22,691 bases of DNA, from positions 1 to 22,691 of the IMG/VR virus record IMGVR_UViG_3300032213_000585; one strand, given 5' to 3'. This DNA is from a virus. Shown one piece after another: positions 2 through 16,668 of this stretch; within the stretch, counting starts at the first letter, position 1, and each line of letters begins with the position of its first letter. Below the pieces are notes generated by a model, which ran no database searches, had not been told where the DNA came from, and was given only the letters and a program-made list of their open reading frames with translations. The position numbers and the translations under genes are program-made.

Positions 2-760
2 CGTTGGGCTACTCACGGATCGGAGACTGTAGATAACTGTCATCCGTTTAGTTTGGGTAATGATCCAATGAGTGTTATGGGTCATAACGGTATTCTTCCT
101 GTCAAGATTGACAAGAATGATGATCGTTCAGACACAAAGGTTTTTGCCCAGGACATTATGCCTGCAATCGGTGGAGTCACTTCATTAGATGATGATGAAT
201 ACTTCAAAAAATTGGAGACATGGGCAAAGGGTTCAAAGTTAGTTTTCTTAACTCTGAATGAAGATGCAAAATATCCGTTCTATATTCTCAATGAAAAGGA
301 TGGTCACTGGGATAAAGATATTTGGTGGTCAAACTATTCATACGAATACAGCCGATACACATACAAACCATACAAGGGTATGTATTCGTCTGCTGGTTGG
401 GATGACTGGGACTACGGATACCAATCATATTCAACTCAACCTGCAAATCAACCCGTGATTGATGATGATAATGATGAAGCACAAATAGAAATTGATGACA
501 TGTTTAATCAGTTTGGTGTGTTCATGACAGCGTTAAGCAAAGATGAATCGCTTCTCGAATGTTATTCATGTGCGCATTCAGAGCATGTTGCTTCAGATGA
601 AATATTCACTCATTGTCCACAATGTTTCAACTGTTTGCATTGTGGAACAAGCAAGGACTGCATGTGTTGGGATGCACTATATGAAAATTATTATGTAGAT
701 GCATACAACCATGCACATGAGTTGGAAACAATTACTACTACACACCCAAGTTTTTACTAG
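2..760 (+). CDS. Class II glutamine amidotransferase-like protein, 5'-truncated by window edge
   Basis: The reading frame is open from base 2, so the gene begins outside the window; the TTG at 53 is not a convincing start because conserved sequence lies upstream of it. The first codons read RWATHG and then NCHPF (about 2-49), followed by GHNGIL (about 80-97) and a SDT motif near 128. These are the conserved N-terminal motifs of Ntn-type class II glutamine amidotransferases, which release ammonia from glutamine using an N-terminal cysteine; that cysteine would lie upstream of the window. After the domain comes a Tyr/Trp-rich linker (308-433), an acidic stretch, and a Cys-rich tail (560-667) with the pattern C-x2-C ... 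C-x2-C-x2-C-x2-C-x5-C-x-C, probably metal-binding. The acceptor substrate is unknown. In phages and bacteria such domains can accompany amidoligases; none is visible here. Confidence 0.8.
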   Translation, partial: RWATHGSETVDNCHPFSLGNDPMSVMGHNGILPVKIDKNDDRSDTKVFAQDIMPAIGGVTSLDDDEYFKKLETWAKGSKLVFLTLNEDAKYPFYILNEKDGHWDKDIWWSNYSYEYSRYTYKPYKGMYSSAGWDDWDYGYQSYSTQPANQPVIDDDNDEAQIEIDDMFNQFGVFMTALSKDESLLECYSCAHSEHVASDEIFTHCPQCFNCLHCGTSKDCMCWDALYENYYVDAYNHAHELETITTTHPSFY

Positions 761-769
761 GAGAACATT

Positions 770-1285
770 ATGACAACAATTAAACTAATCCCATCTACAA
801 TGGAGTTTGAAGTATCTGTTGATAGCGCATCAATGCCATCACTATTCAATCAGTCGATGGAAACAACAATCGTTGAAGAGATCACTCGTCAACTTGATGG
901 AAAACTTCCAAAACAAGAAGAAATCGTCAATGAAATCAAGGAAAATCGAGAGTATTCACGCAAAATCCGTGATTGGGTGCTGGAAGAAATTGACTACCAT
1001 GACATAGCAGAGCGTGCTACACAAGAGATTAGTTATGAGCAGATCGCAGAACGAATCATGGACTCGGATGCTTGGCAATTCGATTCACTGATTACACAAC
1101 TGACTCGCAATGCACGTTTCATAAACATGGTTCAAACAGCAGTAAGAAATTGTGTTATGACTTCAGATGTAACAGATCATATTGAGCATGCTGTTGAAAA
1201 TCATGTAAATGCAATCAAGAATGATGTTGCAGATCAAGCGGTGAAGATCATCAACAATCGTCTTAGTGGCGGTGCGGATGTCTAA
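770..1285 (+). CDS. Hypothetical helical protein, 171 aa
   Basis: The ATG at 770 has a good ribosome-binding site (AGGAG at 759-763) that overlaps the stop codon of the preceding gene, so the two are probably co-translated. The protein is predicted by eye to be almost entirely alpha-helical, Glu/Ile/Asn-rich, with no transmembrane segment, no cysteine motif and no recognisable catalytic motif. A heptapeptide YxxIAER occurs twice with a 13-residue period (residues 76-82 and 89-95), suggesting a short helical repeat. The 3' end overlaps the start of the WhiB-like gene by 8 bases. I do not recognise the family. A structural, scaffolding or protein-binding role is possible, but nothing in the sequence decides it. 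Confidence 0.75.
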   Translation: MTTIKLIPSTMEFEVSVDSASMPSLFNQSMETTIVEEITRQLDGKLPKQEEIVNEIKENREYSRKIRDWVLEEIDYHDIAERATQEISYEQIAERIMDSDAWQFDSLITQLTRNARFINMVQTAVRNCVMTSDVTDHIEHAVENHVNAIKNDVADQAVKIINNRLSGGADV

Positions 1286-1553
1286 AACGCTACCAATATT
1301 CAATATATACAAACCTAATTTCATGCAACAAGGAGCATGCATCGGGCAGCCAATGCGCTGGTGGTTCCCTGAACATGGAGATGGAAAACTAGCGCAAGAA
1401 AATCTTGCAACAGCAAAACAAATATGTAAATCATGCCGTGTAAAACTGCAATGTTATGAGTTCGGAACACGAACTAGTTCATGCGGTGTATGGGGTGGTA
1501 TTACTTTAGATCGTGGTCGCCCGACCCGGAGAGGAAAGAACCGTGCTAAGTAA
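1278..1553 (+). CDS. WhiB-like (Wbl) Fe-S transcriptional regulator
   Basis: This 91-residue protein has the Wbl signature: Cys21, then Cys50-x2-Cys53-x5-Cys59 (ICKSCRVKLQC), the four ligands of a [4Fe-4S] cluster, followed by the G-V-W-G-G turn (residues 70-74) and a basic C-terminal tail (RGRPTRRGKNR) like the DNA-contacting tail of Wbl proteins. An extra cysteine at 69 sits next to the turn. Wbl proteins bind the principal sigma factor and act as redox or nitric-oxide responsive regulators; phage copies can interfere with host Wbl function. The start is taken as ATG 1278, overlapping the upstream stop by 8 bases; a GTG at 1266 would add four residues and lies outside the conserved region. 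A likely role is to reprogramme host or phage transcription, but its targets cannot be read from the sequence. Confidence 0.93.
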   Translation: MSKTLPIFNIYKPNFMQQGACIGQPMRWWFPEHGDGKLAQENLATAKQICKSCRVKLQCYEFGTRTSSCGVWGGITLDRGRPTRRGKNRAK

Positions 1554-2247: not shown

Positions 2248-2664
2248 ATGCTCAGAATTCTTCTTGCATCAATAATTACTTGGATACCAGTAAATGACAC
2301 AGATCAATACATTTACTCATCACCAAATAATGAGGCATCTATAACTATCCCCAAGAACGCCAAGTGTCCACAGTGGTGGAACATGGCGCTATCGGTTGGC
2401 TGGTCTGCAAAGAACATGAAAATGCTCGACACAATTATGCATCGAGAATCAAAGTGTAACTTGCTTGCCAGAAACCGTCAAGATCCAAACGGAGGTAGTT
2501 TCGGGTTAATGCAAATCAATGGATTCTGGAAAGATTATTGCGATCTAAACAAGAAAAAAGATCTCATTGATCCTAGCATAAATCTTTCTTGTGCGTTAGA
2601 TGTATTCACCTACGCCCACAACAGGCACGGCAACGGCTGGGGTCCTTGGAGGGCAGAAGAATAA
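2248..2664 (+). CDS. Lytic transglycosylase-like (SLT/lysozyme fold) protein, 138 aa
   Basis: ATG 2248 follows AAAGGAG at good spacing. Residues 60-80 read LDTIMHRESKCN, in which Glu67 fits the catalytic glutamate of the SLT family, followed by SFGLMQING (the conserved S-x-G-L-M-Q-I motif) and a late YAHNRHGNGWGPW that matches the family's C-terminal motif. The enzyme would cleave the N-acetylmuramic acid to N-acetylglucosamine bond of peptidoglycan. The N-terminus has a short hydrophobic stretch (residues 2-14), a possible weak export or membrane signal but shorter than a standard signal peptide. Several cysteines (40, 70 and two near 89-105) could form disulfides outside the cytoplasm. It sits with accessory genes on the strand opposite to the M15 endolysin, so it may be a second lysin or act at entry. 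It is the last gene before a probable terminator. Confidence 0.85.
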   Translation: MLRILLASIITWIPVNDTDQYIYSSPNNEASITIPKNAKCPQWWNMALSVGWSAKNMKMLDTIMHRESKCNLLARNRQDPNGGSFGLMQINGFWKDYCDLNKKKDLIDPSINLSCALDVFTYAHNRHGNGWGPWRAEE

Positions 2665-2867: not shown

Positions 2868-3734
2868 ATGAGAATAGAAAATGATAACGGTTCGTCCGTT
2901 GATCGTATTTATATAAGGCAATCGTGGCTCGGAGACGCTCTTATGTGTCCTGAAAGAGCACGACTAACAGAGTTGCATCCAACCGCTAGGAAAGAAAACG
3001 ATTCAGCAATGATGGGTACTGCTGTGCATACAGGCATTGAAGCAGTACTTAACAGTGTTATTGATCCTAGTGAAATCGCTAGTTATTCGGTTAATGCGTT
3101 CCGCTCCAAGGAACAAGACCTGTGGTCGAAGGGACAGAAAATCAACATCACTAACACTGAGCCCAGGAACTGGGACAAGCATATTGCTTCTATGGCTGAT
3201 GCTTGGGTTAGAGATATCATGCCGTCTGTACCCCAAGGGGGTCAGACGGAATACAAGTTCACTACCAAAGTTGGTGGTGTGGACAACCCTTTATTCCAGT
3301 ATGAACTCTGGTTTGAGGGAACAATGGACTACATTCACCCAACAGGTATTTGGGACTGGAAAACTGCTGCACGCAAGTACAGCGAAATGGAAAAGCAAAC
3401 TCAAAACATTCAGTCTGCTATTTATGCAGAGTCTGCAAATAGGCTGAATTTAGTGGGCTATCCAACCGAATTTAATTTCGGGGTTATGATACGTAATGGT
3501 TCTTCTACCGGTCAGATTCTCACTATTGACAGAAAGCCTGAACACGGTAATTGGATTATTACGCAAGCAATTTCTATCATCAATAGTATATTGTTGAGCA
3601 AGATTTATCTTCCATCAGAACGATGGTTGATAAATGACCAGCACTTTCTCTGTTCAAAGAGATGGTGTCCAGTATGGTCAATGTGCAAAGGCTCGTTTAT
3701 TGACGAGTCAACTAACAACGCTGAGGAGGCGTAA
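2868..3734 (+). CDS. Cas4/RecB-type PD-(D/E)XK exonuclease with four Fe-S cysteines
   Basis: This 288-residue protein carries Cys27 near the N-terminus (LGDALMCPERARL), a G-T-A-x-H motif (His54), the nuclease core Asp154, Asp163 and Lys165 (GTMDYI then WDWKT), a QxxxY-like helix (QNIQSAIYAES), and a C-terminal cysteine cluster Cys262-x4-Cys267-x5-Cys273. The one-plus-three cysteine arrangement is that of Cas4 and AddB-type nucleases, where it holds a [4Fe-4S] cluster that closes the nuclease domain. A role in DNA end resection or recombination is likely, given helicase, primase and RusA genes downstream. ATG 2868 was chosen because GGAG (2859-2862) lies five bases upstream; the frame is open from a TTG at 2841, which falls inside the leader hairpin. 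There is no CRISPR array, so an adaptation role is not supported. Confidence 0.85.
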   Translation: MRIENDNGSSVDRIYIRQSWLGDALMCPERARLTELHPTARKENDSAMMGTAVHTGIEAVLNSVIDPSEIASYSVNAFRSKEQDLWSKGQKINITNTEPRNWDKHIASMADAWVRDIMPSVPQGGQTEYKFTTKVGGVDNPLFQYELWFEGTMDYIHPTGIWDWKTAARKYSEMEKQTQNIQSAIYAESANRLNLVGYPTEFNFGVMIRNGSSTGQILTIDRKPEHGNWIITQAISIINSILLSKIYLPSERWLINDQHFLCSKRWCPVWSMCKGSFIDESTNNAEEA

Positions 3735-3736
3735 TC

Positions 3737-4174
3737 ATGGACAAAGACAGAGCAATCATCACACAGGTCTGTGCAAAAATTGCAGCAGATCTAACAGATA
3801 AACAACTAACAGTAGAAGAACGAATTGGCGAATTCGCTATTATTTTTTCTTCTATCACAGACATCATGATCGAGGAGATTTATGGTGAGGACAATAAGGT
3901 CATTGAGCAAAACAAGAATGTTGTTGCAATGGTTAAGGATGCTTTCAAAGCAGAGGAAATCATTGTAGAAAAATCTGCAACGTCAACTTCAGATGGAGTT
4001 GTTGTTAAGGGTAAGCAACATGGTCCTCTTCCTGATTGGTTGATCAAGGCTTGCAAGCGTGATGGTGTAACGACTGTGTATGACAATCGTGATTCACTCG
4101 CTCTAAATCCTAAGCGTCCTTCATTCAAGGCTGTTGACGCCGAGAAGGCTTACTGGCCACCTCGGAGCCGTTAA
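3737..4174 (+). CDS. Hypothetical protein with basic C-terminal motif, 145 aa
   Basis: ATG 3737 has a very strong ribosome-binding site (GAGGAGG, about 3722-3728) and follows the nuclease stop by two bases. The N-terminal half (residues 1-75) is helical and acidic; a Ser/Thr-rich hinge follows; the C-terminal 50 residues form a distinct basic segment with GPLPDWL, VYDNRD, KRPSFKA and a final AYWPPRSR. The aromatic and proline motif at the extreme C-terminus looks conserved in character and could be an interaction or nucleic-acid-binding element. It lies between a nuclease and a helicase with TAATG coupling to the helicase, so a replication accessory role (loader or single-strand binding) is plausible but unproven. 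I do not recognise the family. Confidence 0.75.
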   Translation: MDKDRAIITQVCAKIAADLTDKQLTVEERIGEFAIIFSSITDIMIEEIYGEDNKVIEQNKNVVAMVKDAFKAEEIIVEKSATSTSDGVVVKGKQHGPLPDWLIKACKRDGVTTVYDNRDSLALNPKRPSFKAVDAEKAYWPPRSR

Positions 4175-5202
4175 TGCGTTTATCAGCAGAAGAAATATCT
4201 GCTGGTTGGGAGTCGGTGGAGAAACAGCACCCCATGGCTGTTTCTCCACACTCCGAATACAGAATGTATTCACCTCTTTCTGAAGCCGCAGATTCATTCG
4301 TTAGATGGGCGCAATCTCCACAGGACAGAATCCATTTAGGGATTCCTAAGATAGATCAAGAACTTCGGGGCATTGCTCCTGGTGAAATGTCAATCATGCT
4401 GGGCTTTGCTCATGGTGGTAAAACATTAGTGCTGTTAAATGCACTTCGTGAGAATCGTGACAAACATATAGCAATGTTCATTCCTGATGAACCAAGACAA
4501 TTAGTGCTAACCAAGTTGGCTTGCATACATCACCGGATAGACGCTAGAGAACTTGAAGCAAGAGTTGCGATTGACGATCAAGACGCAATCAATTTGCTTA
4601 GACAAACCGCTGAAGAGGATTTCCCTAATCTTGCGGTATTCGATCAGCCTTTAAACGCTTCAGATATGGAGCGTGCTTACAACGAGTTGTGCGACCTTTG
4701 GGGTCGTGTGCCAGAACTTGTTGTAGTTGACTATCTTGACCTTGTGGAAGCAGGAGAAACTGTTCCCGACAAAGCAACCTTCTTAAAGGGTTTCGGTCGT
4801 AGACATGACATTCCAATGCTTGTATTACATCAGACATCACGCACCGCAGGTGCTGACGGAAAGAAGATGACCATGAGTTCTGGTGCTTATGGTGGCGAGC
4901 AACAAGCCACAAGCATTATCGGTGTTCGTCGTAAGAAATATCAGATTGCTCATGAGATCAATGAGTTGATCGAAAAATTAGATCGTACTCATTCAGATAG
5001 AACTCAGGACAGGCTCGATTATCTTCGTCATGAAGCGCTAATGCATGAGCATACGTTGACTGTTAGTTTGCTTAAAAACAAACGGCCAGCGGGTCAACTT
5101 GTTGACGACATTGACTTTGAGTTAGATGCTGCAACAGGTCGTTTAACGTATCTCAATGGTGCTTTACCAACTCAATATCAGCAAGGTCAGATGTATGAAT
5201 GA
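4174..5202 (+). CDS. Replicative DnaB-like helicase, RecA core only
   Basis: This 342-residue ATPase has Walker A GFAHGGKT (residues 77-84), an acidic FIPDEPR segment where DnaB has its catalytic glutamate, Walker B LVVVDYLDLV (about 181-191), the sensor LVLHQTSR, and a late KNKRPAGQL that matches the DnaB C-terminal motif ending in a Gly-rich turn. The preceding LGIPKIDQELRGIAPGE is typical of the DnaB/KaiC entry to the ATPase core. The roughly 75 residues before the core are too short for a normal DnaB N-terminal primase-binding domain, so coupling to primase may differ. It starts by TAATG overlap with the preceding stop and overlaps the primase gene by 8 bases, indicating tight co-expression of the two fork enzymes. 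Confidence 0.88.
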   Translation: MRLSAEEISAGWESVEKQHPMAVSPHSEYRMYSPLSEAADSFVRWAQSPQDRIHLGIPKIDQELRGIAPGEMSIMLGFAHGGKTLVLLNALRENRDKHIAMFIPDEPRQLVLTKLACIHHRIDARELEARVAIDDQDAINLLRQTAEEDFPNLAVFDQPLNASDMERAYNELCDLWGRVPELVVVDYLDLVEAGETVPDKATFLKGFGRRHDIPMLVLHQTSRTAGADGKKMTMSSGAYGGEQQATSIIGVRRKKYQIAHEINELIEKLDRTHSDRTQDRLDYLRHEALMHEHTLTVSLLKNKRPAGQLVDDIDFELDAATGRLTYLNGALPTQYQQGQMYE

Positions 5203-6097
5203 TGGAATAGAGATGTTCATGTCCCTGTTCGGGGGTCGTATTGATGCGTACGGCACTTGGGATGGGGGCTGTGAACGTTCCAGTGTGTCTTATGAGACAT
5301 TCGCTAGACATCTCTACGGTGAAGAACTAATCGGTATCTACCCTCTGACCGATGGTAATTCTGTTAAATGGGGTTGTTCGGATATTGATATTGATGATAT
5401 CGATATGGCCGTGAACCTTCAGACGGCTTTCGCCGTTAAAGGTTTGAAAACTTTTATTGAAAAAACCCGTAAGGGTTATCATGTGTGGATGTTCGCTAAT
5501 GACTGGGTTCCTGCGACCACAATGCGGAGAGCCTTCCTTGTGGCACATGATGTGATCGGTGTGCCTCCCAAAGAAGTCAACCCTAAGCAAGAGGTGTCCA
5601 GTGGTCTGGGCAACTATGTACGTTTGCCGTACCCAAATGGCATGAATGAAATCCCTGAAATAAGGTATGCAATATTCCCAGATGGGTCTGCCATGACATT
5701 GCAAGAGTTTCTCAAAGAAGCAATGGATTCAAGGGTTTCGATCAAGGATCTTGAACCTCTCGCAGAGAAACACAAACAAAGAAGTCGGGCTGTGCTAACT
5801 CCTACCCCTACTTCTACTTCTGTTTATCAAGCATTGGATAAAGCAAATGGTTATATTGCGTCTATCTGGCGCAATGGTCCACTACCTAATTCTGACCGGT
5901 CAAGTACCTTGATGCGCATGTGTCATTACATGCGTGAGTTCGGTGTTCCAATCAACGAAGCGTTCATCATTCTTGTGGACGCAGACAAGCGGTGGGGCAA
6001 GTTCCACGAACGGCCCGATGCTGTGTTACATTTGACAAAAATGATTGAAGATGCATTCGGCAAGGACTACGAGTTCAAGGAGGATTTTAATCCGTGA
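5195..6097 (+). CDS. Archaeo-eukaryotic (TOTE-type) primase
   Basis: This is a 300-residue primase of the AEP superfamily. Asp63-x-Asp65 (CSDIDIDD) fits the catalytic metal-binding D-x-D; TRKGYHVWMF (residues 91-100, His96) is the nucleotide-binding motif; EVNPKQ (127-132) followed by GNYVRLPYP (139-147) matches the third motif region seen in TOTE-type primases. The C-terminal third (about 215-290) is helical and may be a PriCT-like accessory region. It would synthesise primers for replication together with the helicase, whose gene overlaps by 8 bases. ATG 5195 was chosen, with AAGG at 5183-5186; an upstream TTG at 5156 lies within the helicase gene. No zinc-binding domain of DnaG type is present. 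Confidence 0.85.
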   Translation: MNDGIEMFMSLFGGRIDAYGTWDGGCERSSVSYETFARHLYGEELIGIYPLTDGNSVKWGCSDIDIDDIDMAVNLQTAFAVKGLKTFIEKTRKGYHVWMFANDWVPATTMRRAFLVAHDVIGVPPKEVNPKQEVSSGLGNYVRLPYPNGMNEIPEIRYAIFPDGSAMTLQEFLKEAMDSRVSIKDLEPLAEKHKQRSRAVLTPTPTSTSVYQALDKANGYIASIWRNGPLPNSDRSSTLMRMCHYMREFGVPINEAFIILVDADKRWGKFHERPDAVLHLTKMIEDAFGKDYEFKEDFNP

Positions 6098-6459
6098 AAA
6101 AGTTTCAATATCATCAGATGATAAAGATTAGACCTATTGCTAAAGGTCGCCCACGATTCAATATGAAAACTGGTAATGCTTATACTCCAGCCAGGACTAG
6201 AGAGTATGAGAAGTCAATCAAAGAATCCTATAAAGGTCCGATGTTTGAGGATCAGTTGCTTTCGGTTAAGTTGCGTTTCACTGTTGATGGAACAGAACTT
6301 CTTATCGAGCCGTTGATTCTTAATCCAAACGTAGAACAACCTAAATCTAAATTAACTTCAGATATTGACAACTATGCTAAGGCGGTTTTAGATGCCCTTA
6401 ATGGGGTTGCTTATAAAGATGATAAACAGGTTGTTTCTTTGTATCTGGAAAAAGCATGA
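6094..6459 (+). CDS. rusA: RusA-family Holliday junction resolvase
   Basis: This 121-residue protein has the RusA layout: a basic N-terminal KGRPRF (residues 17-22), AYTPARTREYE (29-39), and the catalytic block DIDNYAKAVLDALNG (90-104) followed by YKDDKQV (107-113). Asp92, Asp100 and Asp110 fit the conserved metal-binding acidic residues. The enzyme is expected to cut Holliday junctions as a dimer, resolving recombination or branched replication intermediates before packaging. The GTG start at 6094 overlaps the primase stop (GTGA) and has AAGGAGG at 6077-6083. The length is that of a standard RusA. Confidence 0.92.
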   Translation: MKKFQYHQMIKIRPIAKGRPRFNMKTGNAYTPARTREYEKSIKESYKGPMFEDQLLSVKLRFTVDGTELLIEPLILNPNVEQPKSKLTSDIDNYAKAVLDALNGVAYKDDKQVVSLYLEKA

Positions 6460-6602: not shown

Positions 6603-7011
6603 CAAACCTTTCAGTCTTGATCATTACAACCAAGATGATCCTGCAAAAGAAATCTTCTGTGACTGGTTGAGGTCGCAAGGTTATGAAGCAATAGTCAATC
6701 CTGATAAATATGGGATTGATGTTTTGACTAATTGGTTTGGCGAAGACACTGGTGTCGAAGTTGAAGTTAAACATAATTGGAAGGGAAGTTATTTCCCTTT
6801 CAAAACTATTCATTATGCTGCAAGAAAATATAAGTTTTTGTCAGGTAACAAAGAAGTTAGGTTTGTTACTTTCAATCATGACAAGAATCGTATGATTGTT
6901 GTTGATGGTAAAGAGTTTGTCAAAATAGTTACTAAAGAAACAAAGTACACTAGTGACGAGACTTTCTACGAAATTCCAATTGACAAGGTACAATTCGTAG
7001 ATATTGCGTAA
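6589..7011 (+). CDS. Putative PD-(D/E)XK nuclease-fold protein, 140 aa
   Basis: Residues 18-64 carry a restriction-endonuclease-like core: helix PAKEIFCDWLRSQGY, then YGIDVLTNW with Asp44, and VEVEVKHNW with Glu59-x-Lys61. The G-I-D ... E-x-K arrangement matches the PD-(D/E)XK active site. A conserved-looking aromatic stretch (YFPFKTIHYAARKYKF) and a beta-rich C-terminal half follow. The 140-residue length fits a minimal nuclease domain without a separate DNA-binding domain. It lies between RusA and a sigma-like regulator in the replication operon; a role in DNA processing or host DNA degradation is possible. The fold call is based on motif spacing by eye. Confidence 0.65.
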   Translation: MKPISKPFSLDHYNQDDPAKEIFCDWLRSQGYEAIVNPDKYGIDVLTNWFGEDTGVEVEVKHNWKGSYFPFKTIHYAARKYKFLSGNKEVRFVTFNHDKNRMIVVDGKEFVKIVTKETKYTSDETFYEIPIDKVQFVDIA

Positions 7012-7390
7012 TAGAGACATACATCTCTCTCCAGCACAAGAAGCAACGCTTCGGGTTGCTAGGAGACCAGAAACGCCAATTGAGGCGTTGATGATGGCCC
7101 CTGCCTTTGAAGACGTTAAAGAGTCTGTGCAGGAACTGCAACCTCTTCGGGAAGCAGTCGCTGACTGCATCGACAAACTAAATGATCAAGATCGTTTCAT
7201 TGTTGACGCTGTTAACTCAGAAATGGTTTCTTTAGAAGAACTTGGCAAAAGGCTGGGGGTTTCCAAACCCCATGCCTGGAGGTTACGGAATGCAGCATAT
7301 GAGAGGCTGGCAGTCCATCTCCGTGCCCACCCCTATTTATCGGAAAGGTTTAATTTAGATGAGGACGAATCAGATGACAATAGGGTTTGA
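7004..7390 (+). CDS. Sigma-70 region 4-like helix-turn-helix protein, 128 aa
   Basis: Residues 59-102 read LNDQDRFIVDAV then VSLEELGKRLGVSKPHAWRLRNAAYERL, which is the organisation of sigma-70 region 4: a helix, then a helix-turn-helix with a recognition helix ending in R-x-R. No region 2 is present, so it is not a complete sigma factor; it may be a regulator, a -35-binding accessory factor, or a RinA/ArpU-like late activator. The TTG start at 7004 overlaps the previous stop by 8 bases; ATG codons at 7091 and 7094 are alternatives that would keep the whole helix-turn-helix. The acidic C-terminus overlaps the next small ORF. It may control the switch to the convergent late operon. Confidence 0.75.
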   Translation: MRNRDIHLSPAQEATLRVARRPETPIEALMMAPAFEDVKESVQELQPLREAVADCIDKLNDQDRFIVDAVNSEMVSLEELGKRLGVSKPHAWRLRNAAYERLAVHLRAHPYLSERFNLDEDESDDNRV

Positions 7391-7803: not shown

Positions 7804-8213
7804 TGAAATCAGTTAAATCAGAATGGACTTTAGTAGCAATTCATTGGCGTGATGCCTTTGACGGTGAAAACGGCTGGACAGATTTAGAGAAGTATTCTCC
7901 TACTGAAGCAACTGTTGTCACCGTCGGGTGGCTCATTCCTGACATGCTTAAAGGTTATGTAACTCTTGTTAATTCATACTTCCCTGATGAAGTTGATGAC
8001 CCCAAAACAGTTGGTATGCCAATCCATATTCCTGTTGGAATGGTTATTCAAACAATTGTTTTAGATCAACCTTTGGTTTCTATTCTTGATCCAGAGGAGT
8101 CGGTTCAGGAATCACAAGATTCGCAAACGCTTCCCGCATTTTTGCCGGGTCATCAGCCATCTCAGGTGAAATCTCAAAATGAAGCCAGTCTCCTGAACCC
8201 CCACCGTGAATAG
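7803..8213 (+). CDS. Conserved-looking hypothetical protein, last gene of the + operon, 136 aa
   Basis: ATG 7803 overlaps the preceding stop (TAATG) behind GGAGG. The first 90 residues look like a compact beta-rich domain with several Trp/Gly motifs: WRDAFDGENGW, VVTVGWLIPDML, GYVTLVNSYFPDEVDDP and MPIHIPVGMV. The C-terminal 45 residues are Ser/Gln/Pro-rich, low in order, and are encoded on the strand opposite to the last quarter of the M15 endolysin gene (8080-8213). The tail may therefore be evolutionarily recent, added by loss of an earlier stop codon. No enzyme motif is seen. It shares a V-V-T-x-G-W strand with the 1543-2034 protein. Confidence 0.75.
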   Translation: MKSVKSEWTLVAIHWRDAFDGENGWTDLEKYSPTEATVVTVGWLIPDMLKGYVTLVNSYFPDEVDDPKTVGMPIHIPVGMVIQTIVLDQPLVSILDPEESVQESQDSQTLPAFLPGHQPSQVKSQNEASLLNPHRE

Positions 8214-8592
8214 TTTCTTTTTTGTAGTTCAACCATGCGTTACGATCACACATCCATGCACGTCCATGTGGCTTGACTAGATAATCAAATATTGCTTCAA
8301 CGCCTAATAGTTCTGCGTTAGCCACAATAATCTTTAGCACTCGTAGTGCTTCCATTCGACCGTTCTTGATGCCCTTCTTTGGTGGCATGTGCCGGTACGA
8401 CAGGTCTACTGCTCGTCCTGTTGCGTGAACGGAAAGTGATTCTTTTCCACGCATTGGGCGAACGCCCCAGTCGCCATTATTCCAAAGCGCACCATTGGAC
8501 AACTTAATTGTCTCATCAATAAATACTTTCATTCCTGGACGCAAACCCTTTGCGGCTCCATCCTTGTTGCCTGTGTATAGTCTCTTCTTCAT
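8080..8592 (-). CDS. M15-family zinc metallopeptidase, probable endolysin
   Basis: This 170-residue protein shows the M15 (D-Ala-D-Ala carboxypeptidase / L-Ala-D-Glu endopeptidase) motifs: SVHATGRAVD with His56 and Asp63 as zinc ligands, and GDWLHFEI with Asp135 in the catalytic-acid position and His138 as third ligand. It would cut peptide bonds in peptidoglycan during lysis. There is no signal peptide and no separate cell-wall-binding domain, so export would need a holin or similar; none was recognised. ATG 8592 has AAGGAG at good spacing and follows the giant virion gene by eight bases. Residues 127-170, including the second catalytic motif, are encoded antisense to the end of the 7803-8213 gene. 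It is the last gene of the late operon. Confidence 0.9.
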   Translation of the reverse strand: MKKRLYTGNKDGAAKGLRPGMKVFIDETIKLSNGALWNNGDWGVRPMRGKESLSVHATGRAVDLSYRHMPPKKGIKNGRMEALRVLKIIVANAELLGVEAIFDYLVKPHGRAWMCDRNAWLNYKKETIHGGGSGDWLHFEISPEMADDPAKMREAFANLVIPEPTPLDQE

Positions 8593-8600
8593 GTTTCTCC

Positions 8601-11600
8601 TTAGTTATATTTTCTTACTGGTGAACCCAACCAAGATAGCCATGCGTTCAATTGTGTGGTGTCTTCCGTACCAAACAATCTTTGTGCCTGTCCTACTGGT
8701 GTAACTACGCCTTTCAAAGCAGACATAAGTCTGTCTTGATTGTCAACAAAATCTTTTCCTGTGAAGAAACTCTTACCCAATGCCTGCTCTGCTGGCACCT
8801 TAAACACAGGGTTGACCTGATTCAAAAGTTTCAAAGGATTTGAAAGATCTTCTACTGTTGGCCCAATTCTTGTAAATCCAAAGTCTGGCAAAAAATTCAA
8901 TCCATCACCAAATGGCAACTTGAATGCACCAAGTTTTGCAATAAATGGATTTATATTTGCATCGTCCTGCGGTCGATCACCACGGAAGTTGTCTATAAAG
9001 TTTTGGTAAATCAAATATGGTTTAGGATTCAACCACATGTTTGTAACTTGCATATGCATGTTTCGTGAGGTCCACAACCAGAACGGAATAAACTGCCTCA
9101 TTGCTTTATCTAATTTTGACAAGTCTTCGTAGTCAAAGTAATAACGCTTAACCCGTGCTGCAGCCATACCAGCATCTGCTCCACGTATTGCAGAGTCAAA
9201 TGCCAATATAAATCTGTTGTAGTTATCGGATGCTTGACCGGCATTTTGATTCAATCGAATTAACCAGTTATCGTAAAAACGACTACCTGCAGTGGCATCT
9301 TTAAATGTAGAACTAAAGATACCACCACCCGAACCGAGTGAGCCAAGGCGAGCGGTTCGAAGTGTCTCGACCATTTCTGGTGCAGTCCTTCCAACAAACT
9401 CTAAATATTCTTCCCAAGTTTTTCCTGCTTTAGAAAACTTAAGCCAGTTAAAATATAATGGAGTTCCTTTGATTACGTTTTCCATTTTTGCATCAGCAAA
9501 TGTCAAAGTCATTGCGTTAGCAATTGCGTTTCTCACATGGAATCCTGGACTCAAAGTTACGTAAGCCTTAAAAAACTTTGTGTAATCACCAATGTAATAC
9601 TGCAATGCTCTAATCCATAATGGATCTTCGATTCGTGCTGCAGCATCCCAAAGAGTCTTAAACTCTGGTGACACTTGTAGTCCAGGGAAATACTTGGAAT
9701 GCAAGATTTCCCATCCGTCTTTAAGATCTTTTGTTGTCTGTCTAATTGCTCTTGCAGGTAGACCAATATCAGATACTGTTCCGTCTGGCATCATGAATGT
9801 TCCATCCGGTAGCAACTGTGCACCTAAACCTTTTTCAAGATTTGATGCAGCGTAAACCATTCGTTGGTCAAACTCTGCTTCACCCATTCTTATAAATGCA
9901 TCATTGAACTGTGTTTCAAGTTGTATCTGGTTTAGTATGACTGCATCAATGGCATCTACTTGTGACTTGTTTCCAATATGCTCGGCCAGTGCCTTCGCAT
10001 CTTGCATTGTTTTCTTGATGACTTCTAGTCGGTCATAGAAACTTCCCTTGCCAGATCCAGTGTCGGCCACAGCCTTGGCTGCAGATGATGGACCAAGTTT
10101 TTGGTTATTGATATCTACAGTTGTGCGAATCTGTGTGTCATCAATCATCTTTAATACTGAGTCCAATTGAGTTTGGATGTCGGCAACCTTTGCCGGATCC
10201 ATATCTTGGATATTCTGTGGAGCATTAAAAGCATCTATTGCTTGTTGTGCTCTTGCTTTTGCTGCTTGTGCTTGCTTGTCTAGTACTTCAAGCGGACGTC
10301 CTGCGGCTGCTCTAAGGTCTGTTTCAAGTTGGTTCATCGGGTCGGCGGGTATTTGAGTTTCAATTGTAAATCGTGATTGCTTTACTGGTTTCGCTGTAAG
10401 CAGTCGATCAACAACGTTGTCGCCTCGTTGTCCCTGATAATTAGGGTTAGGTATCTTCTTGCCTTGCTTGTTCAAGATAAACTCTTCAACACCATTGGCG
10501 TTTTTGCGAGTTAAGAATTCTTGTTGGTCAAATGCTTGTCCAACGTTTTCTGCTTCAGAAGTTACTTTAAATGTTCCTGATGCAGTTGTACTTTTCGCTG
10601 CAACTTCTTCTGCTTGTCCAGCCCTAACAACAACTTCATAGTTCTTGTTAAATTCTTCTGCAATCCTTTCGGATTCGGTAGAAATAAATTCGTCAAACTC
10701 TTTGGTCTTGGCTTTAAGGCCAGCACGTTCAGCCCTTACTGCTGCAACTCTTCGTGCTATGTCTGCACGTTCTACACCTGATAATGGTTTTTCTCCTGCT
10801 TGTGCAAGACGAACGTTAAGAACTGCTTCACGCTCTCGAAGCAACCTTCTTGCTTTCATACCTTCTGTGGATGGTGTCGAAATCTTCTGTAAACGCATTT
10901 GTTTCAACAAAGCAACTTGTTCTTCTAGTTGTTTTACAGTCATTTGTTCAACTGGAACGGCATTTAGAATGCGATCTATTTCTTGTTCAACTTCTTTTAA
11001 TGAACCAAGTTTTATCTTCTCCGAAGTATTCAGAGTTCTTGTAGCGTCTTCCGGCAATACAACTCGTGATGGTATGTCCGTGACATTGCCAGCATCATCA
11101 AGACGGATATCCCTAAAAGTAACCATGTCACCAGATTGTGGTTGATCTAATACTTTGCCAGTTGCCTTAATGTCGGATTCAATCTGCTGTGATTCAAGAT
11201 CAGCAATAATTGTTTTATAACGATTTAAAATCTCATCAACGTTCAAAGGAATGTGGTCGGAAGCATTTGCTGTAGTTTCATTTGCAAGTCTTTCAACTTC
11301 ACGCAACCTAGTAATCACACCATCAACAGAACTTGTAGCATCAAGCGCACGTTGTGACTGCTTCTCTGCAATAACTCTTGCACGGTAAGCATTGATCTTT
11401 GACAGATGCTCATAAGCATCAGTCTTTTCCCAAGCACCAAGAATGTTTTTCCTTCGTGCTGCAACAACTTCACCAGACTCCAAAATGCCTGGATTCATTT
11501 CTGCAAGATGTTTAACCAAACGTTTTACGGCAAGTTCAGAAGATATCTCCTGTGCACCGACTTCGGTAAACTCAACCGGAGATGTAACACGTAAAATCTC

Positions 11601-14600
11601 TGGTCTTTTTGCGTATTCCATTATTCGTGCAAGTTTGCCTTGCACTCCAGAATTCAAGTCAGCACCCCAAGTAAGAAGATTCCACTCTTCGGGTGTAAAC
11701 GTTATTCCTGTATCACCCCAAGTGACACTACTACCATCTATCGCAGAAAGACTATGCACCGCATTGGCTCGTGACTCAACACTCTTGAACACGGGATAAG
11801 CATCGGAGTTCATCAACTCATCAACAACTAACTGCGAGTTAGAAACTTCGTCCACAACTGGGGTGCCCAACTTGGTGGCCCTTTTCTTGCCATCATTCAA
11901 TATGGTCTCTGTGGCCGCAGCACCCAATTCGGAATCAGCAAATGCTTTTGGTCCATATCCAATAAAACTTTCAGCAAGATTTTTTTGTTGATCAAGTCTT
12001 GCCTGCTCTTGCAATATTCTTAATTCAAGATTACGTGGTCCCCTAGAAAGAGCCGCTTCACTAGTTGTCCTCATGTAATCGTCAAGGATTTTGACCATAA
12101 TTTCGTTTGCAGATGTTTGTAAATCTTGGAACAAGATTCCGTTATCCAAGAAGAAATTATAAAGTGTGGCATTCTCTGGAAGAGTTATGTCAAAGTTTGC
12201 CGGCAACTTGCCAGAGTTGTCGAGCAATAGATTCATAAACGCAGAATGATTCTCATCAAATGTTTTAAGTGCATCTTCAGCACCACGTTTAATTGGAACC
12301 CAAATATCTGCAAAAGAATCTTCAAGAAATTTACGCATCATTTCTTTGCGCCCAGGATAATCACTATTCATTAATGTATTAAAATTAGATATTAGGGTTT
12401 CTCTTATGTCTGCATGTTTAATTTCTGTTTCAGCAATAAATGCTCTAATGTTTGAAACTTCTTGATTCAATTCTGCATACTGTTTTTCAACAGCCTTTAA
12501 AACTCTTTGTTGACGAGCCTTGAATGAACCCCATGATTTTCTTTGTGTAGAACTAAGTTGTGTTAATTCTGCTGTTTCTTTCTTTACAGCAATCTCAACC
12601 TGTGCAGGAGTTTTACCAGTAGTCCTTCTAGTTGATTCTTCAAATAAGTTCTGAAGATAATCTCTTTCATTCTTTAATCTGGTGCCAACAGCAAATGGCC
12701 CGTCTGTACCTTTACGCCCAAAACCTTTTGTGGTTAATTGTTTAACTCTTTCAAAATCACCAGTTTTAATTGCGTCAAGAATAAATGGTTCTGCATTCCT
12801 TGCAAGAATCTCATCAATAACATCATCACCAATAGTTATGTTGTATTGCCTTAAGATGGAATCCATCTGGGTGTACTCTGCCCATGCTTTTTGTTGTAGC
12901 CAAATATCTTGCATCATACGTGCTGCACGTTGTGGATCATTTTCAATAAGACTCTTAATAATTCTTAATTGTCCTGCTTCGTTTGCAATAGCACCATTCA
13001 TATGATCTTTCATAATCAATGATGTTCCATTAAAGTCAAATTGATTTTGCGATATTCGAGCAAACAAATAATCAGCGGAATCTCTTGCGGTTTGATTATC
13101 AATGTTTCCAACAAGAAGTGCTGAAAGAATTCCTTCAAATTCTGCATCATCCATCTGAGCAACTTTCTTGCTCATCCATGGATAGCGGGTGCCGGCACTA
13201 ACCGGCCCCCACTCTTTAGCAACCTGCTGTGCGGTTTTGCCACCAGCAAGTGTGTCGGATATCTTGCGAAGATTTTCATATAAAGATTTACCACCAAGAT
13301 CCATATTGGAACGCAAGGAGGAGATAACTGTATGTACATCTTGGTATGCAGACATTGATCTTTCAAAAGCCTGAATACCATTTGAGTAATCCGAATAACG
13401 TTGCTGTATCTCAAACAATCTCTTAGGATCAACATCACCAGTCAAAGAAGCAATCTCATTCTTTATTGTTTCTAGTTGACGAGCAAGATCATCTCTTTGC
13501 TTCATGATCAAAGAAAAGTTGTTTATGTTGTCTGTATTCTCAATAGAAAAAGACTTCAAGGCTTCATCGTAAAGTCGTGTCTTTTCTACAGAGTCAAGTA
13601 CTGCAGCCTCCATGGCTTGTTTCAAGGCAAGCACGTCTGTAGAAGGCATTGTGCCATCGGCAAGGGCGGTCATAGCGGTCTGTAAATCGCCGTATAGCCC
13701 TCTCAGAGCCTCTCTAACGGTGTGTAATCCACCGGCTGCACCGTTGGACAAGTCCCAAAGAGCCTTCTGGGCATCCTCCAAAGCCTGCTTAGGGGCATCA
13801 ACCATGACCTGCTTCAAATATGCAGGATTTAAACCGTAAGCCTTTTCAACTGTAGCCAAGAAATCTGGTCCAATTTGAATTCCCTTTTTAAGCATTTCAA
13901 AATGTCCAACCTGCTGACTGTAAGCCTGAATGTAATTGGAAAAAACTTGACGAATGTCTGTTGCAAACAAATCAAAGTTAAACCCCTTCCATCCTGCGTC
14001 CACAAGTCCACGACTTGCAGCCCAGTCAGCAAATTCACCAGTTGGGTTGCTTGCATAAAAGTTCAACTGCTGTGGTCGAAGATTGTCTCCTTCTTGGAGC
14101 ACATGACCAAAAAACAAATCACCCTCTTGAAGACCTCGTTCTTTAAACGGACCAACATAGCGGGTCGAGTTTACTCGGCCAGCGCTAGTCAGTTCATCTA
14201 ATGCATCTTCACCTCGAATAAGAAAAAACTTCTTTCCCTTTTCGGAAGTCATAATAGGAAAATAACCCTTAGTTACATATCCTGGTGGTGTTGCACCAAT
14301 TTCCGCTGCACGTCTCTGAACGTCCCCAACCATAGTATCGAGAGTTTGTCTCAACTCTTTTCCAAGCGTTATCTGATCTGCACTAAGTCCAAGACTTAAA
14401 CCAGCAGCATCAAGATCTTCATTACCGGCAAGAAGCAGATGCATAACATTTCTATTTTCTTTTTTAGAAAGTTGATCAAACATTGCTTTTGAATTTGATG
14501 AAACATCTTCACCAGCCTGTGATGTTGCTATTCTTCTCCAGTCATCAATTTCAAGCATTGTAAGATTCAAGTTCACTTCATCTGGACTCATTCCGCCACG

Positions 14601-15635
14601 TGCAAGTTTTACTCGTGCATCACGAATAAAATCCTCACCAAATGGTGCAAACTTTCCAACACCGGTTGGAGTCGCAACAGCCTGCAAGGCGCCACCAACT
14701 TTGGTATTCACCATTCCAAGTCGTGCACCATTTAAAACATTTTCAGCAAACTGACCAATTTTGTCAGTTCCAGGAATTTTTACTCGACTGCCAAAATAAT
14801 AAACACCAGGTCCTTTAATGCCCATGTCTCTTGCTACTTCAGGAACAAGATCATAAAGTGTTCCCTTACCTCTTGCAAGAATGCCACCGGCAACTTCGTT
14901 TATAAAATCATCTGTGTAATGTGCAAACTTTTCTGGTTCAAGTCTTGCCATGCGTGCCATTCGTTCACGTGTAAACTGTGCAAGTTTTTGTCTGCCTTCA
15001 CGACCAATCACTGTTTTACCAAGAACACCACGAGTTTCTTTCATTACAATTTTTGTTGTTCCAGTGGCAACATCAAATACTTCATCTGCATATTTTGCTT
15101 TTGATGCAACAGTTCCACCCAACGTTGCGTATGTCAAAGGGTCTAAGAGAACATCTCCAAGAAATCCAACGACACGACCCTTCCAACCCTTCATTGGAAA
15201 GGCTGTACCAAAACCATAGTTTACATCTTTGGTCTGATTAAACCAGTCACCAAAAGACGCTTTGGTATTTTTATCCGTATCTAAAAGATCTACAGTTTCA
15301 CGAATTGCAGATATGACAGCACGCTTGGGTGTGTCAAGCAGTTGTATCGGTGCAAGTATTGCCTTAGAAAACCCGGCAGGTTTTTGCATCTGCTTAAATA
15401 TGTCGTTTATATCACTTGTGTAATACGCACTCTTCTTCGGTGCCTCATAGTTCTTGTCTTTGCTATAAGGATTATTCTTAAGATTATCTAAAAGAAATTG
15501 CGTCTGTGGTGACTGACGAACTTCAGTCTTTTTTTCAAAAGGTATTGCAACTTTTTTTGTAGGAACCTTACTAGCAGAAATCTGCTTCAAAGCATCAATA
15601 ACTGTTTTCTGGTTCGCTGGATTAGGCTGTACCAC
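8601..15635 (-). CDS. Giant internal virion / DNA-ejection protein candidate, 2344 aa
   Basis: This is one uninterrupted frame making up about a third of the window. The start is uncertain: GTG 15635 overlaps the upstream stop by 14 bases, while TTG 15665 would add ten residues; neither has a clear ribosome-binding site. The N-terminal part has a DPLTYATLGGTVASK segment and a later GYVTKGYFPIMTSEKGKKF; a long central region is helical and coiled-coil-rich (Gln, Glu, Ala, Lys); the last 400 residues contain FHVRNAIANAMT, RYYFDYEDLSKLDKAMR and FIPFWLWTSRN. The last pattern (a D-Y-x-x-L helix followed by an I-P-F-W-x-W-x-R motif) is familiar from very large phage proteins thought to be carried in the head and injected with DNA. 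No HExxH, Walker A or polymerase motif was spotted. Its place at the end of the virion genes agrees with an ejection protein. Confidence 0.8.
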   Translation of the reverse strand: MVQPNPANQKTVIDALKQISASKVPTKKVAIPFEKKTEVRQSPQTQFLLDNLKNNPYSKDKNYEAPKKSAYYTSDINDIFKQMQKPAGFSKAILAPIQLLDTPKRAVISAIRETVDLLDTDKNTKASFGDWFNQTKDVNYGFGTAFPMKGWKGRVVGFLGDVLLDPLTYATLGGTVASKAKYADEVFDVATGTTKIVMKETRGVLGKTVIGREGRQKLAQFTRERMARMARLEPEKFAHYTDDFINEVAGGILARGKGTLYDLVPEVARDMGIKGPGVYYFGSRVKIPGTDKIGQFAENVLNGARLGMVNTKVGGALQAVATPTGVGKFAPFGEDFIRDARVKLARGGMSPDEVNLNLTMLEIDDWRRIATSQAGEDVSSNSKAMFDQLSKKENRNVMHLLLAGNEDLDAAGLSLGLSADQITLGKELRQTLDTMVGDVQRRAAEIGATPPGYVTKGYFPIMTSEKGKKFFLIRGEDALDELTSAGRVNSTRYVGPFKERGLQEGDLFFGHVLQEGDNLRPQQLNFYASNPTGEFADWAASRGLVDAGWKGFNFDLFATDIRQVFSNYIQAYSQQVGHFEMLKKGIQIGPDFLATVEKAYGLNPAYLKQVMVDAPKQALEDAQKALWDLSNGAAGGLHTVREALRGLYGDLQTAMTALADGTMPSTDVLALKQAMEAAVLDSVEKTRLYDEALKSFSIENTDNINNFSLIMKQRDDLARQLETIKNEIASLTGDVDPKRLFEIQQRYSDYSNGIQAFERSMSAYQDVHTVISSLRSNMDLGGKSLYENLRKISDTLAGGKTAQQVAKEWGPVSAGTRYPWMSKKVAQMDDAEFEGILSALLVGNIDNQTARDSADYLFARISQNQFDFNGTSLIMKDHMNGAIANEAGQLRIIKSLIENDPQRAARMMQDIWLQQKAWAEYTQMDSILRQYNITIGDDVIDEILARNAEPFILDAIKTGDFERVKQLTTKGFGRKGTDGPFAVGTRLKNERDYLQNLFEESTRRTTGKTPAQVEIAVKKETAELTQLSSTQRKSWGSFKARQQRVLKAVEKQYAELNQEVSNIRAFIAETEIKHADIRETLISNFNTLMNSDYPGRKEMMRKFLEDSFADIWVPIKRGAEDALKTFDENHSAFMNLLLDNSGKLPANFDITLPENATLYNFFLDNGILFQDLQTSANEIMVKILDDYMRTTSEAALSRGPRNLELRILQEQARLDQQKNLAESFIGYGPKAFADSELGAAATETILNDGKKRATKLGTPVVDEVSNSQLVVDELMNSDAYPVFKSVESRANAVHSLSAIDGSSVTWGDTGITFTPEEWNLLTWGADLNSGVQGKLARIMEYAKRPEILRVTSPVEFTEVGAQEISSELAVKRLVKHLAEMNPGILESGEVVAARRKNILGAWEKTDAYEHLSKINAYRARVIAEKQSQRALDATSSVDGVITRLREVERLANETTANASDHIPLNVDEILNRYKTIIADLESQQIESDIKATGKVLDQPQSGDMVTFRDIRLDDAGNVTDIPSRVVLPEDATRTLNTSEKIKLGSLKEVEQEIDRILNAVPVEQMTVKQLEEQVALLKQMRLQKISTPSTEGMKARRLLREREAVLNVRLAQAGEKPLSGVERADIARRVAAVRAERAGLKAKTKEFDEFISTESERIAEEFNKNYEVVVRAGQAEEVAAKSTTASGTFKVTSEAENVGQAFDQQEFLTRKNANGVEEFILNKQGKKIPNPNYQGQRGDNVVDRLLTAKPVKQSRFTIETQIPADPMNQLETDLRAAAGRPLEVLDKQAQAAKARAQQAIDAFNAPQNIQDMDPAKVADIQTQLDSVLKMIDDTQIRTTVDINNQKLGPSSAAKAVADTGSGKGSFYDRLEVIKKTMQDAKALAEHIGNKSQVDAIDAVILNQIQLETQFNDAFIRMGEAEFDQRMVYAASNLEKGLGAQLLPDGTFMMPDGTVSDIGLPARAIRQTTKDLKDGWEILHSKYFPGLQVSPEFKTLWDAAARIEDPLWIRALQYYIGDYTKFFKAYVTLSPGFHVRNAIANAMTLTFADAKMENVIKGTPLYFNWLKFSKAGKTWEEYLEFVGRTAPEMVETLRTARLGSLGSGGGIFSSTFKDATAGSRFYDNWLIRLNQNAGQASDNYNRFILAFDSAIRGADAGMAAARVKRYYFDYEDLSKLDKAMRQFIPFWLWTSRNMHMQVTNMWLNPKPYLIYQNFIDNFRGDRPQDDANINPFIAKLGAFKLPFGDGLNFLPDFGFTRIGPTVEDLSNPLKLLNQVNPVFKVPAEQALGKSFFTGKDFVDNQDRLMSALKGVVTPVGQAQRLFGTEDTTQLNAWLSWLGSPVRKYN

Positions 15636-16668
15636 GTTTCGCCATATTCTTGTAGATAAGAGCAAGTTTCAATGCTTCAGTCAATGGTGTTTTACCCTGT
15701 TCTGTAAGTTGTCTTTCAATCTCCGTACCAAGAGTCTGTGCTTTAGCGGCCTTACCAGAAGCAGTATCACTTCGACGAGCAATTATTGAGTCAAGGTAAT
15801 CAGCATAAAGATTACGACGCTGTGTAGGGTCTTCACGAATAATTGGTGCATTACCAATTTCCTTTAAAGCAGCCTCTGCACGCTGTCTTTCACGTTTGCT
15901 TTGCTTATCATTAGGATTTTCTCCGGGACCAAAATCTAAACCAGGAAAAATATTTAGACCAAACATTTTTCCAGGATATGGAATACGTGGAATAACTCGT
16001 CCAAGTTTTCCAGCAGCCTTACCAATTGCTGGCCAAAAAGGAAGATCCTCTTCTTGACGTTTATTTCTAGCGGAATTATCTTTTTGAACTTGCAACAAAT
16101 AAGCAAGTTTTTCTTTATCCGTTGCATAAGCAACAGGATTCCTGTATTGATTAACAACATTACTTTTAAGTTTTGCTTCTTTAGCAGTTGCTTCATCAAA
16201 ACCTTGATAAATGTTTTCAAAGTCTTTAGGTGCATATTTGGTCAAGTTTTCCAAACTAAACTTTTCACCGTAACCAGGAAGCCCTTGCTTCTGGAATGGA
16301 TCTTGTTCAAGACCCTGTTCCATAATTTTTGATTTAACAGTTTGCTGTTCGGCAGCAATCGAATCAATAAACTTGTTCCAAGCAGTTGGCTTAACGTTCT
16401 TTGGCGCCATGTCGTACAAACTCCATGGCGGTGAACCAGCACGGATCTGTGAAGCAGCAACAACATAAGGATCCTTTGGATCTCCCTGAGCAGCCAACAT
16501 TGTGTTGGGTGCATAACGCTCCCACAACTGTGTTTCATCAAACTGTGGCTTGGGTTGATATGTTCCCATAATCAACGACAAAACAGGATCCATAGTTGCA
16601 CTTGAAAAATCGCTAAACTTGCCAGCCTTCATCAAGTTAAAAAGCATTGCTTGGTCTTGTGGATCCAT
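15622..16668 (-). CDS. Putative internal virion protein, 348 aa
   Basis: ATG 16668 is preceded by AAAGG. The N-terminal half is globular with many aromatic and proline residues (MGTYQPKPQFDETQLWERY, AGSPPWSLYDMAPKN); the middle is helical and charged; residues about 205-245 contain a Pro/Gly/Phe-rich segment (PRIPYPGKMFGLNIFPGLDF) that might contact a membrane; the C-terminus is basic and helical. No enzymatic motif was recognised. The gene sits directly upstream of the giant virion gene and overlaps its start. By position and composition it is likely to be a component of the ejected core or the tail, but this is inference. Confidence 0.72.
   Translation of the reverse strand: MDPQDQAMLFNLMKAGKFSDFSSATMDPVLSLIMGTYQPKPQFDETQLWERYAPNTMLAAQGDPKDPYVVAASQIRAGSPPWSLYDMAPKNVKPTAWNKFIDSIAAEQQTVKSKIMEQGLEQDPFQKQGLPGYGEKFSLENLTKYAPKDFENIYQGFDEATAKEAKLKSNVVNQYRNPVAYATDKEKLAYLLQVQKDNSARNKRQEEDLPFWPAIGKAAGKLGRVIPRIPYPGKMFGLNIFPGLDFGPGENPNDKQSKRERQRAEAALKEIGNAPIIREDPTQRRNLYADYLDSIIARRSDTASGKAAKAQTLGTEIERQLTEQGKTPLTEALKLALIYKNMAKRGTA

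Follow-up and report, generated by a model that had tools for sequence, protein, structure and literature searches.

At the left edge of a 22,691-base virus record (the window, which is probably itself a fragment), an open reading frame of 252 aa enters across the contig edge, closes with a stop codon at base 760 and joins a glutaminase-like domain to a segment crowded with aromatic residues and a tail crowded with cysteines. What reaction might such a protein serve, and with which partner? The full reading that we favor, at a probability of roughly 0.6, is that ORF 2-760 encodes one of the two enzymes of an amidation cassette, namely its glutaminase.

The truncated amidotransferase

ORF 2-760 belongs to a class II (Ntn) glutamine amidotransferase (GAT) gene whose 5′ part is cut off. 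The original prediction had recognized a class II GAT-like domain in it, and the RWATHG, NCHPF, GHNGIL and RSDT motifs, together with a fold of the GlmS/EgtC type, bear this out. Because the frame is truncated, its catalytic N-terminal cysteine falls outside the window and was read from contig L002, in which positions 4838-6331 align with window bases 1-1494 at 94.4% identity. The missing start is supplied by L002:4632-5597, which encodes a 321-aa protein beginning MCLLTF; residue n of the window ORF corresponds to residue n+69 of this full-length GAT. The original prediction had made its assignment depend on an N-terminal catalytic cysteine, and the full-length homologue does start Met-Cys, as do the complete relatives, one clade of which begins MCMLC. 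The segments of the window protein and the gene that follows it are listed here, with the evidence for each in brackets.

2-358, plus strand: class II GAT (Ntn) domain, C-terminal two thirds or so, equivalent to residues 70-188 of the L002:4632-5597 product (motifs, AF2 model, GlmS/EgtC Z scores)
359-475, plus strand: disordered linker, aromatic/Ser/Gly-rich and then acidic, full-length residues ~189-227 (pLDDT, dN)
476-559, plus strand: predicted helix and strands before the Cys module (AF2 helix 227-240, strands 244-246 and 251-255)
560-667, plus strand: eight-Cys module (Cys invariance in relatives, pLDDT ~91)
668-760, plus strand: variable C-terminus, partly of low confidence, and stop codon (pLDDT <50 at residues 304-318, alignment)
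770-1285, plus strand: next downstream gene, 171 aa (ORF list)

In an AF2 model of the full-length homologue, residues 1-188 mostly have pLDDT >90, residues 189-219 are disordered (pLDDT <50), and a confident tail, with pLDDT 82-95 from residue 231 in the region ahead of the Cys module, extends to about residue 300. The modeled fold is that of an Ntn class II glutaminase, in agreement with the predicted placement among the Ntn-hydrolase amidotransferases; it superimposes on the GlmS glutaminase with a Z score of 13.9 (169 residues, 3.9 Å) and on EgtC with a tied score of 13.6. The catalytic positions C2, R70, T73, H74, N98, G99 and D113 are conserved, residues R70, T73, H74, G75, H83, N98, G99 and D113 are invariant in an alignment of 72 relatives, and the glutamine-binding and oxyanion residues (Arg, Thr-His-Gly, His-Asn-Gly, Asp) align with those of GlmS. 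Against Pfam GATase_4 and GATase_6, the full-length homologue scored below the gathering cut-off (16.4 versus 23 bits), which is a curated threshold and not a defining biochemical feature, and the truncated window protein gave no Pfam match. The GAT is therefore a divergent member of its family, and its placement rests on motifs and fold.

The original prediction had also described a 42-residue linker (bases 308-433) containing ten Tyr and five Trp. These counts are exact, and 15 Tyr plus Trp in a span of this length were reached once in 20,000 residue shuffles of the window protein. However, the first ~17 of these residues (WDKDIWWSNYSYE...) belong to the catalytic domain: they are conserved, with G170, W177, S179 and N180 kept, and disorder in the model begins only at full-length residue 189. 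The linker is the fastest-evolving segment of the GAT, with a dN between the window and L002 of 0.10, versus 0.01 in the catalytic domain.

The upstream amidoligase and its inheritance with the GAT

A partner enzyme had been predicted to lie just upstream of the window, and in L002 a gene for a 332-aa Amidoligase_2 protein (3632-4630) does end 1 base before the GAT gene. Of 88 distinct loci, 86 show this adjacency, the two genes lying -19 to 85 bp apart. The L002 and L005 proteins score 23.2 and 30.3 bits against Pfam Amidoligase_2 (PF12224), above its cut-off of 22, and the L006 protein falls below it at 16.5 bits. A model of the L002 amidoligase resembles YbdK (Z 12.0) and glutamine synthetases (Z ~11.5). 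Its ExE, K, D, E, HxH, N and ExR positions do not vary across 53 relatives; E87, E89, H168, H170, N250, E258 and R260 are among the invariant residues. We regard the assignment of the two proteins to the class II GAT and GS-fold amidoligase families as next to certain. The amidoligase also carries an N-terminal CxxC...CxxC module, which some lineages have enlarged to a maximum of eight overlapping CxxC motifs. A DNA-modification gene, which the original prediction had entertained as a possible neighbor, was not recognized among the neighbors scanned with Pfam.

The two genes share more than position. Among 29 phages, distances for the GAT correlate with those for the amidoligase at 0.91 (partial correlation 0.83), while correlations with the DnaB-like helicase are 0.71 for the GAT and 0.69 for the amidoligase; the histories of the two proteins are thus closer to each other than to that of the phage helicase. 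More than 500 relatives of the actinobacterial branch are detectable in viral contigs, and the pair is also found in Marvin, in MEP402, in a gut phage and in actinobacterial chromosomes, a spread over such different genomes that supports a functional unit moving together. It might be argued that the GAT acts by itself and that the amidoligase is merely a neighbor in the same operon, as the evidence for pairing consists of adjacency and co-inheritance. Yet the 86 of 88 adjacent loci span very diverged phages, phages of unrelated types and bacterial chromosomes retain the pairing, and the correlation between the two proteins exceeds the helicase background, all of which makes a solitary GAT very improbable and a functional GAT-amidoligase pair highly probable. 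Neither protein matched the PADLOC models of anti-phage defense proteins at an E value of 0.01.

Several loci depart from the simple arrangement. The Nocardia contigs (L172-L180, L182 and L202) mostly carry two tandem amidoligase-GAT pairs. The related Labedaea contig L171 has a single pair, with genes for an SSB and a DUF4192 protein close by, a setting that may indicate a mobile element. An apparent fusion of ligase and GAT in one open frame in L191 was set aside, since in the closely related L187 the two genes overlap and are not fused, and an assembly frameshift is the simpler reading. In some contigs the main amidoligase is preceded, at a distance of ~0.2-0.6 kb, by another amidoligase-like ORF of diverged sequence; two of these were checked, and neither had a Pfam amidoligase match.

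L015:1552-2427 (also in L017, L018, L020, L052, L078 and L080): second amidoligase-like ORF, recognized by an amidoligase profile match

The cysteine modules

Bases 560-667 of the window encode 36 residues with exactly eight cysteines, as originally counted, in the pattern C-x2-C-x14-C-x2-C-x2-C-x2-C-x5-C-x-C. Eight cysteines in a 36-residue span arose in 0 of 20,000 residue shuffles of the window protein, and the invariance of their spacing in relatives places the tail far beyond chance. All eight are invariant in 72/72 aligned relatives and in 40/40 tails, and comparison with L002 gives a dN of 0 in the tail, albeit on a base of only four synonymous changes. The more general pattern C-x2-C-xn-C-x2-C-x2-C-x2-C-xn-C-x-C was found in 83 of the 85 distinct relatives that reach this region, MEP402 and one gut phage being the sole exceptions; this count leaves out three relatives cut by contig ends, and the profiles used to collect the relatives were dominated by actinophages, a bias toward close members. 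The tail occurs as well in Marvin-type mycobacteriophages and at Labedaea, Nocardia, Mycolicibacterium and Microbacteriaceae loci, and it was not found in more distant bacterial matches. The earlier view that such a tail is unusual for this enzyme family is consequently wrong for the clade to which the protein belongs, where it is near-universal.

Judged from its sequence, the eight-Cys module probably binds two metal ions, and it is very likely that the Cys modules of both partners are zinc-binding. Comparison of the tail with known zinc-finger families such as LIM, RING and zinc ribbon, using a query wider than the module itself, returned only weak, scattered matches of the zinc-ribbon type. 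No earlier description of the strictly conserved Cys modules on both partners in the actinobacterial branch was found in our literature survey, outside of which lie the key papers of 2009 and 2012.

Cysteine modules on both partners, with up to eight overlapping CxxC motifs in the amidoligase, could also mean that the target of amidation or conjugation is a protein of the host or the phage, such as a component of transcription or translation, and that modules of the zinc type recognize it. The GS fold is common to the Pup ligase/depupylase family, and a weak Foldseek match to Dop was obtained; however, some pairs, such as that of gut phage L011, are without Cys modules, and we consider a protein target improbable. 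More speculative than the amidation cassette itself, and rather unlikely, is the idea that the two Cys modules set the actinobacterial branch apart as an amidation (or conjugation) machine assembled by metal, which would act on a defined host macromolecule untargeted by the cassettes of Gram-negative phages, with the eight-Cys tail as a docking element through which the glutaminase joins either the ligase or its substrate. The invariant Cys module offers a defined handle for mutational tests.

Known cassettes and the proposed amidation function

Phage cassettes that combine an amidoligase with an amidotransferase have already been described in phiEco32, LUZ24, Marvin and MEP401. Marvin (cluster S) has the same adjacent genes, gp105 and gp106, including a GAT with an N-terminal Cys and an eight-Cys tail and an amidoligase with an N-terminal Cys module like that of the actinophage partner. 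At ~32-33% identity, the Marvin pair differs in the larger size of the amidoligase (453 aa) and in a short linker without a Tyr/Trp-rich stretch. Marvin gp105 (L009:3350-4711, JF704100.1) is labeled ‘glutamine amidotransferase domain protein’ and yet has the sequence of a GS-fold amidoligase; the amidotransferase is gp106, and the mislabel of gp105 recurs in many cluster S records. The Methylophilales phages MEP401 and MEP402 likewise have an adjacent pair, in which the GAT starts Met-Cys and a Cys module precedes the catalytic domain of the amidoligase, as in the actinophage enzyme (PMC10580990), but the GAT is without the eight-Cys tail.

The phiEco32 and LUZ24 cassettes contain genes for a COOH-NH2 ligase, an amidoligase, a class II amidotransferase, a RimK-like ATP-grasp enzyme and a gamma-glutamyl cyclotransferase (PMC3890496, PMC5498523). 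They resemble the present locus in placing an amidoligase beside a class II GAT that has a Ser/Tyr-rich linker and C-terminal CxxC pairs, and differ from it in their Cys spacing, in amidoligases without an N-terminal Cys module, and in consisting of five or more genes, whereas two are recognized in the actinophage pair. A Pfam scan of upstream ORFs in L002 and L006, which covered some of the ORFs on these partial contigs, gave no match to PF14395, ATP-grasp or gamma-glutamyl cyclotransferase. Beyond the phages, the GlmS glutaminase domain and YafJ-type GATase_4 proteins have the fold and active-site motifs of the phage GAT in common, but the phage protein is a shorter, free-standing domain with an added linker and Cys tail and no synthase domain. 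EgtC is alike in its Ntn fold and differs in its Q-loop and HP motifs.

What is known of the two folds suggests release of ammonia from glutamine by the GAT and ATP-driven amide formation by the GS-fold ligase. We propose that the phage GAT splits glutamine and hands the ammonia to the amidoligase, which would activate a carboxylate with ATP and convert it to an amide. The Cys modules would bind zinc and hold the two proteins together, or hold them to their substrate, which may be a peptide or another component of the host cell envelope that is altered early in infection. That the GAT is an ammonia donor to the ligase we consider likely.

A different division of labor is known from ergothioneine synthesis, in which a GS-fold ligase and an Ntn hydrolase (EgtA/EgtC) form an established combination: EgtA, the partner-pathway enzyme of EgtC, is also GS-related, and EgtC hydrolyzes gamma-glutamyl amides and does not donate ammonia. 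By analogy, the phage ligase could attach glutamate or couple an amine to it as part of a gamma-glutamyl protection and deprotection cycle, and the Ntn enzyme could later hydrolyze the gamma-glutamyl amide with no ammonia being donated. The near-equal Z scores of EgtC and GlmS are consistent with this, as are the gamma-glutamyl cyclotransferase in the phiEco32 and LUZ24 cassettes and the grouping of the amidotransferase with degradation genes (PMC5498523). The active-site loops point the other way. The phage GAT has the GlmS-type motifs RWATHG, NxHP(F), HNG and SDT, while those of host EgtC (RSATxGMP, APF) were sought in it and are absent, and sequence profiles of the GAT match GlmS (E 1e-6) and PurF, with EgtC not found among the matches. 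Fold alone is not decisive; the GlmS-like, EgtC-unlike active-site loop favors ammonia donation over gamma-glutamyl hydrolysis, which we regard as unlikely.

For the amidation cassette, the identity of the substrate is the most tentative element. The literature surveyed establishes no substrate for amidoligase-amidotransferase pairs, frequent as they are among phages. For the phiEco32-type cassettes, the published proposal is that they modify the cell wall and keep out superinfecting phages (PMC10580990, PMC5498523); experiments behind the cell-wall proposal were not found in the literature surveyed. By analogy with these cassettes, a host-envelope substrate is possible, at somewhat less than even odds. 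The pair shares a gene block with replication genes, and no other envelope-modification genes were recognized among the neighbors scanned upstream of it in actinophages. Because the actinobacterial branch has two recognized genes and many relatives, among them those of culturable Marvin-group mycobacteriophages and Nocardia-type chromosomes, it constitutes a convenient minimal system for a substrate search.

Other genes of the window complete the picture of the locus. A lysozyme-like/SLT protein (2248-2664, plus strand; Pfam SLT_3 and SLT) with a likely signal sequence adjoins the WhiB and replication genes and is kept in L005 and L006; its presence is compatible with work on the envelope and does not prove it. 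The gene at 770-1285, which had no Pfam or PHROG match, occupies a place similar to that of genes after the pair in L006 (6732-7289, 185 aa) and L005 (173 aa). The WhiB-like regulator at 1278-1553 (plus strand; Pfam Whib, above cut-off) suggests that the host is an actinobacterium, and the ORF at 7004-7390 (plus strand) encodes a small protein resembling sigma-70 region 4. On the minus strand, a 170-aa protein (8080-8592) containing ATGRAVDLSY...WLHFEIS resembles an M15/VanY-type peptidase by eye and has no Pfam or PHROG match, and a single 2,354-aa ORF (8601-15665), which lies among virion genes and has no PHROG match, probably encodes a giant internal virion protein.
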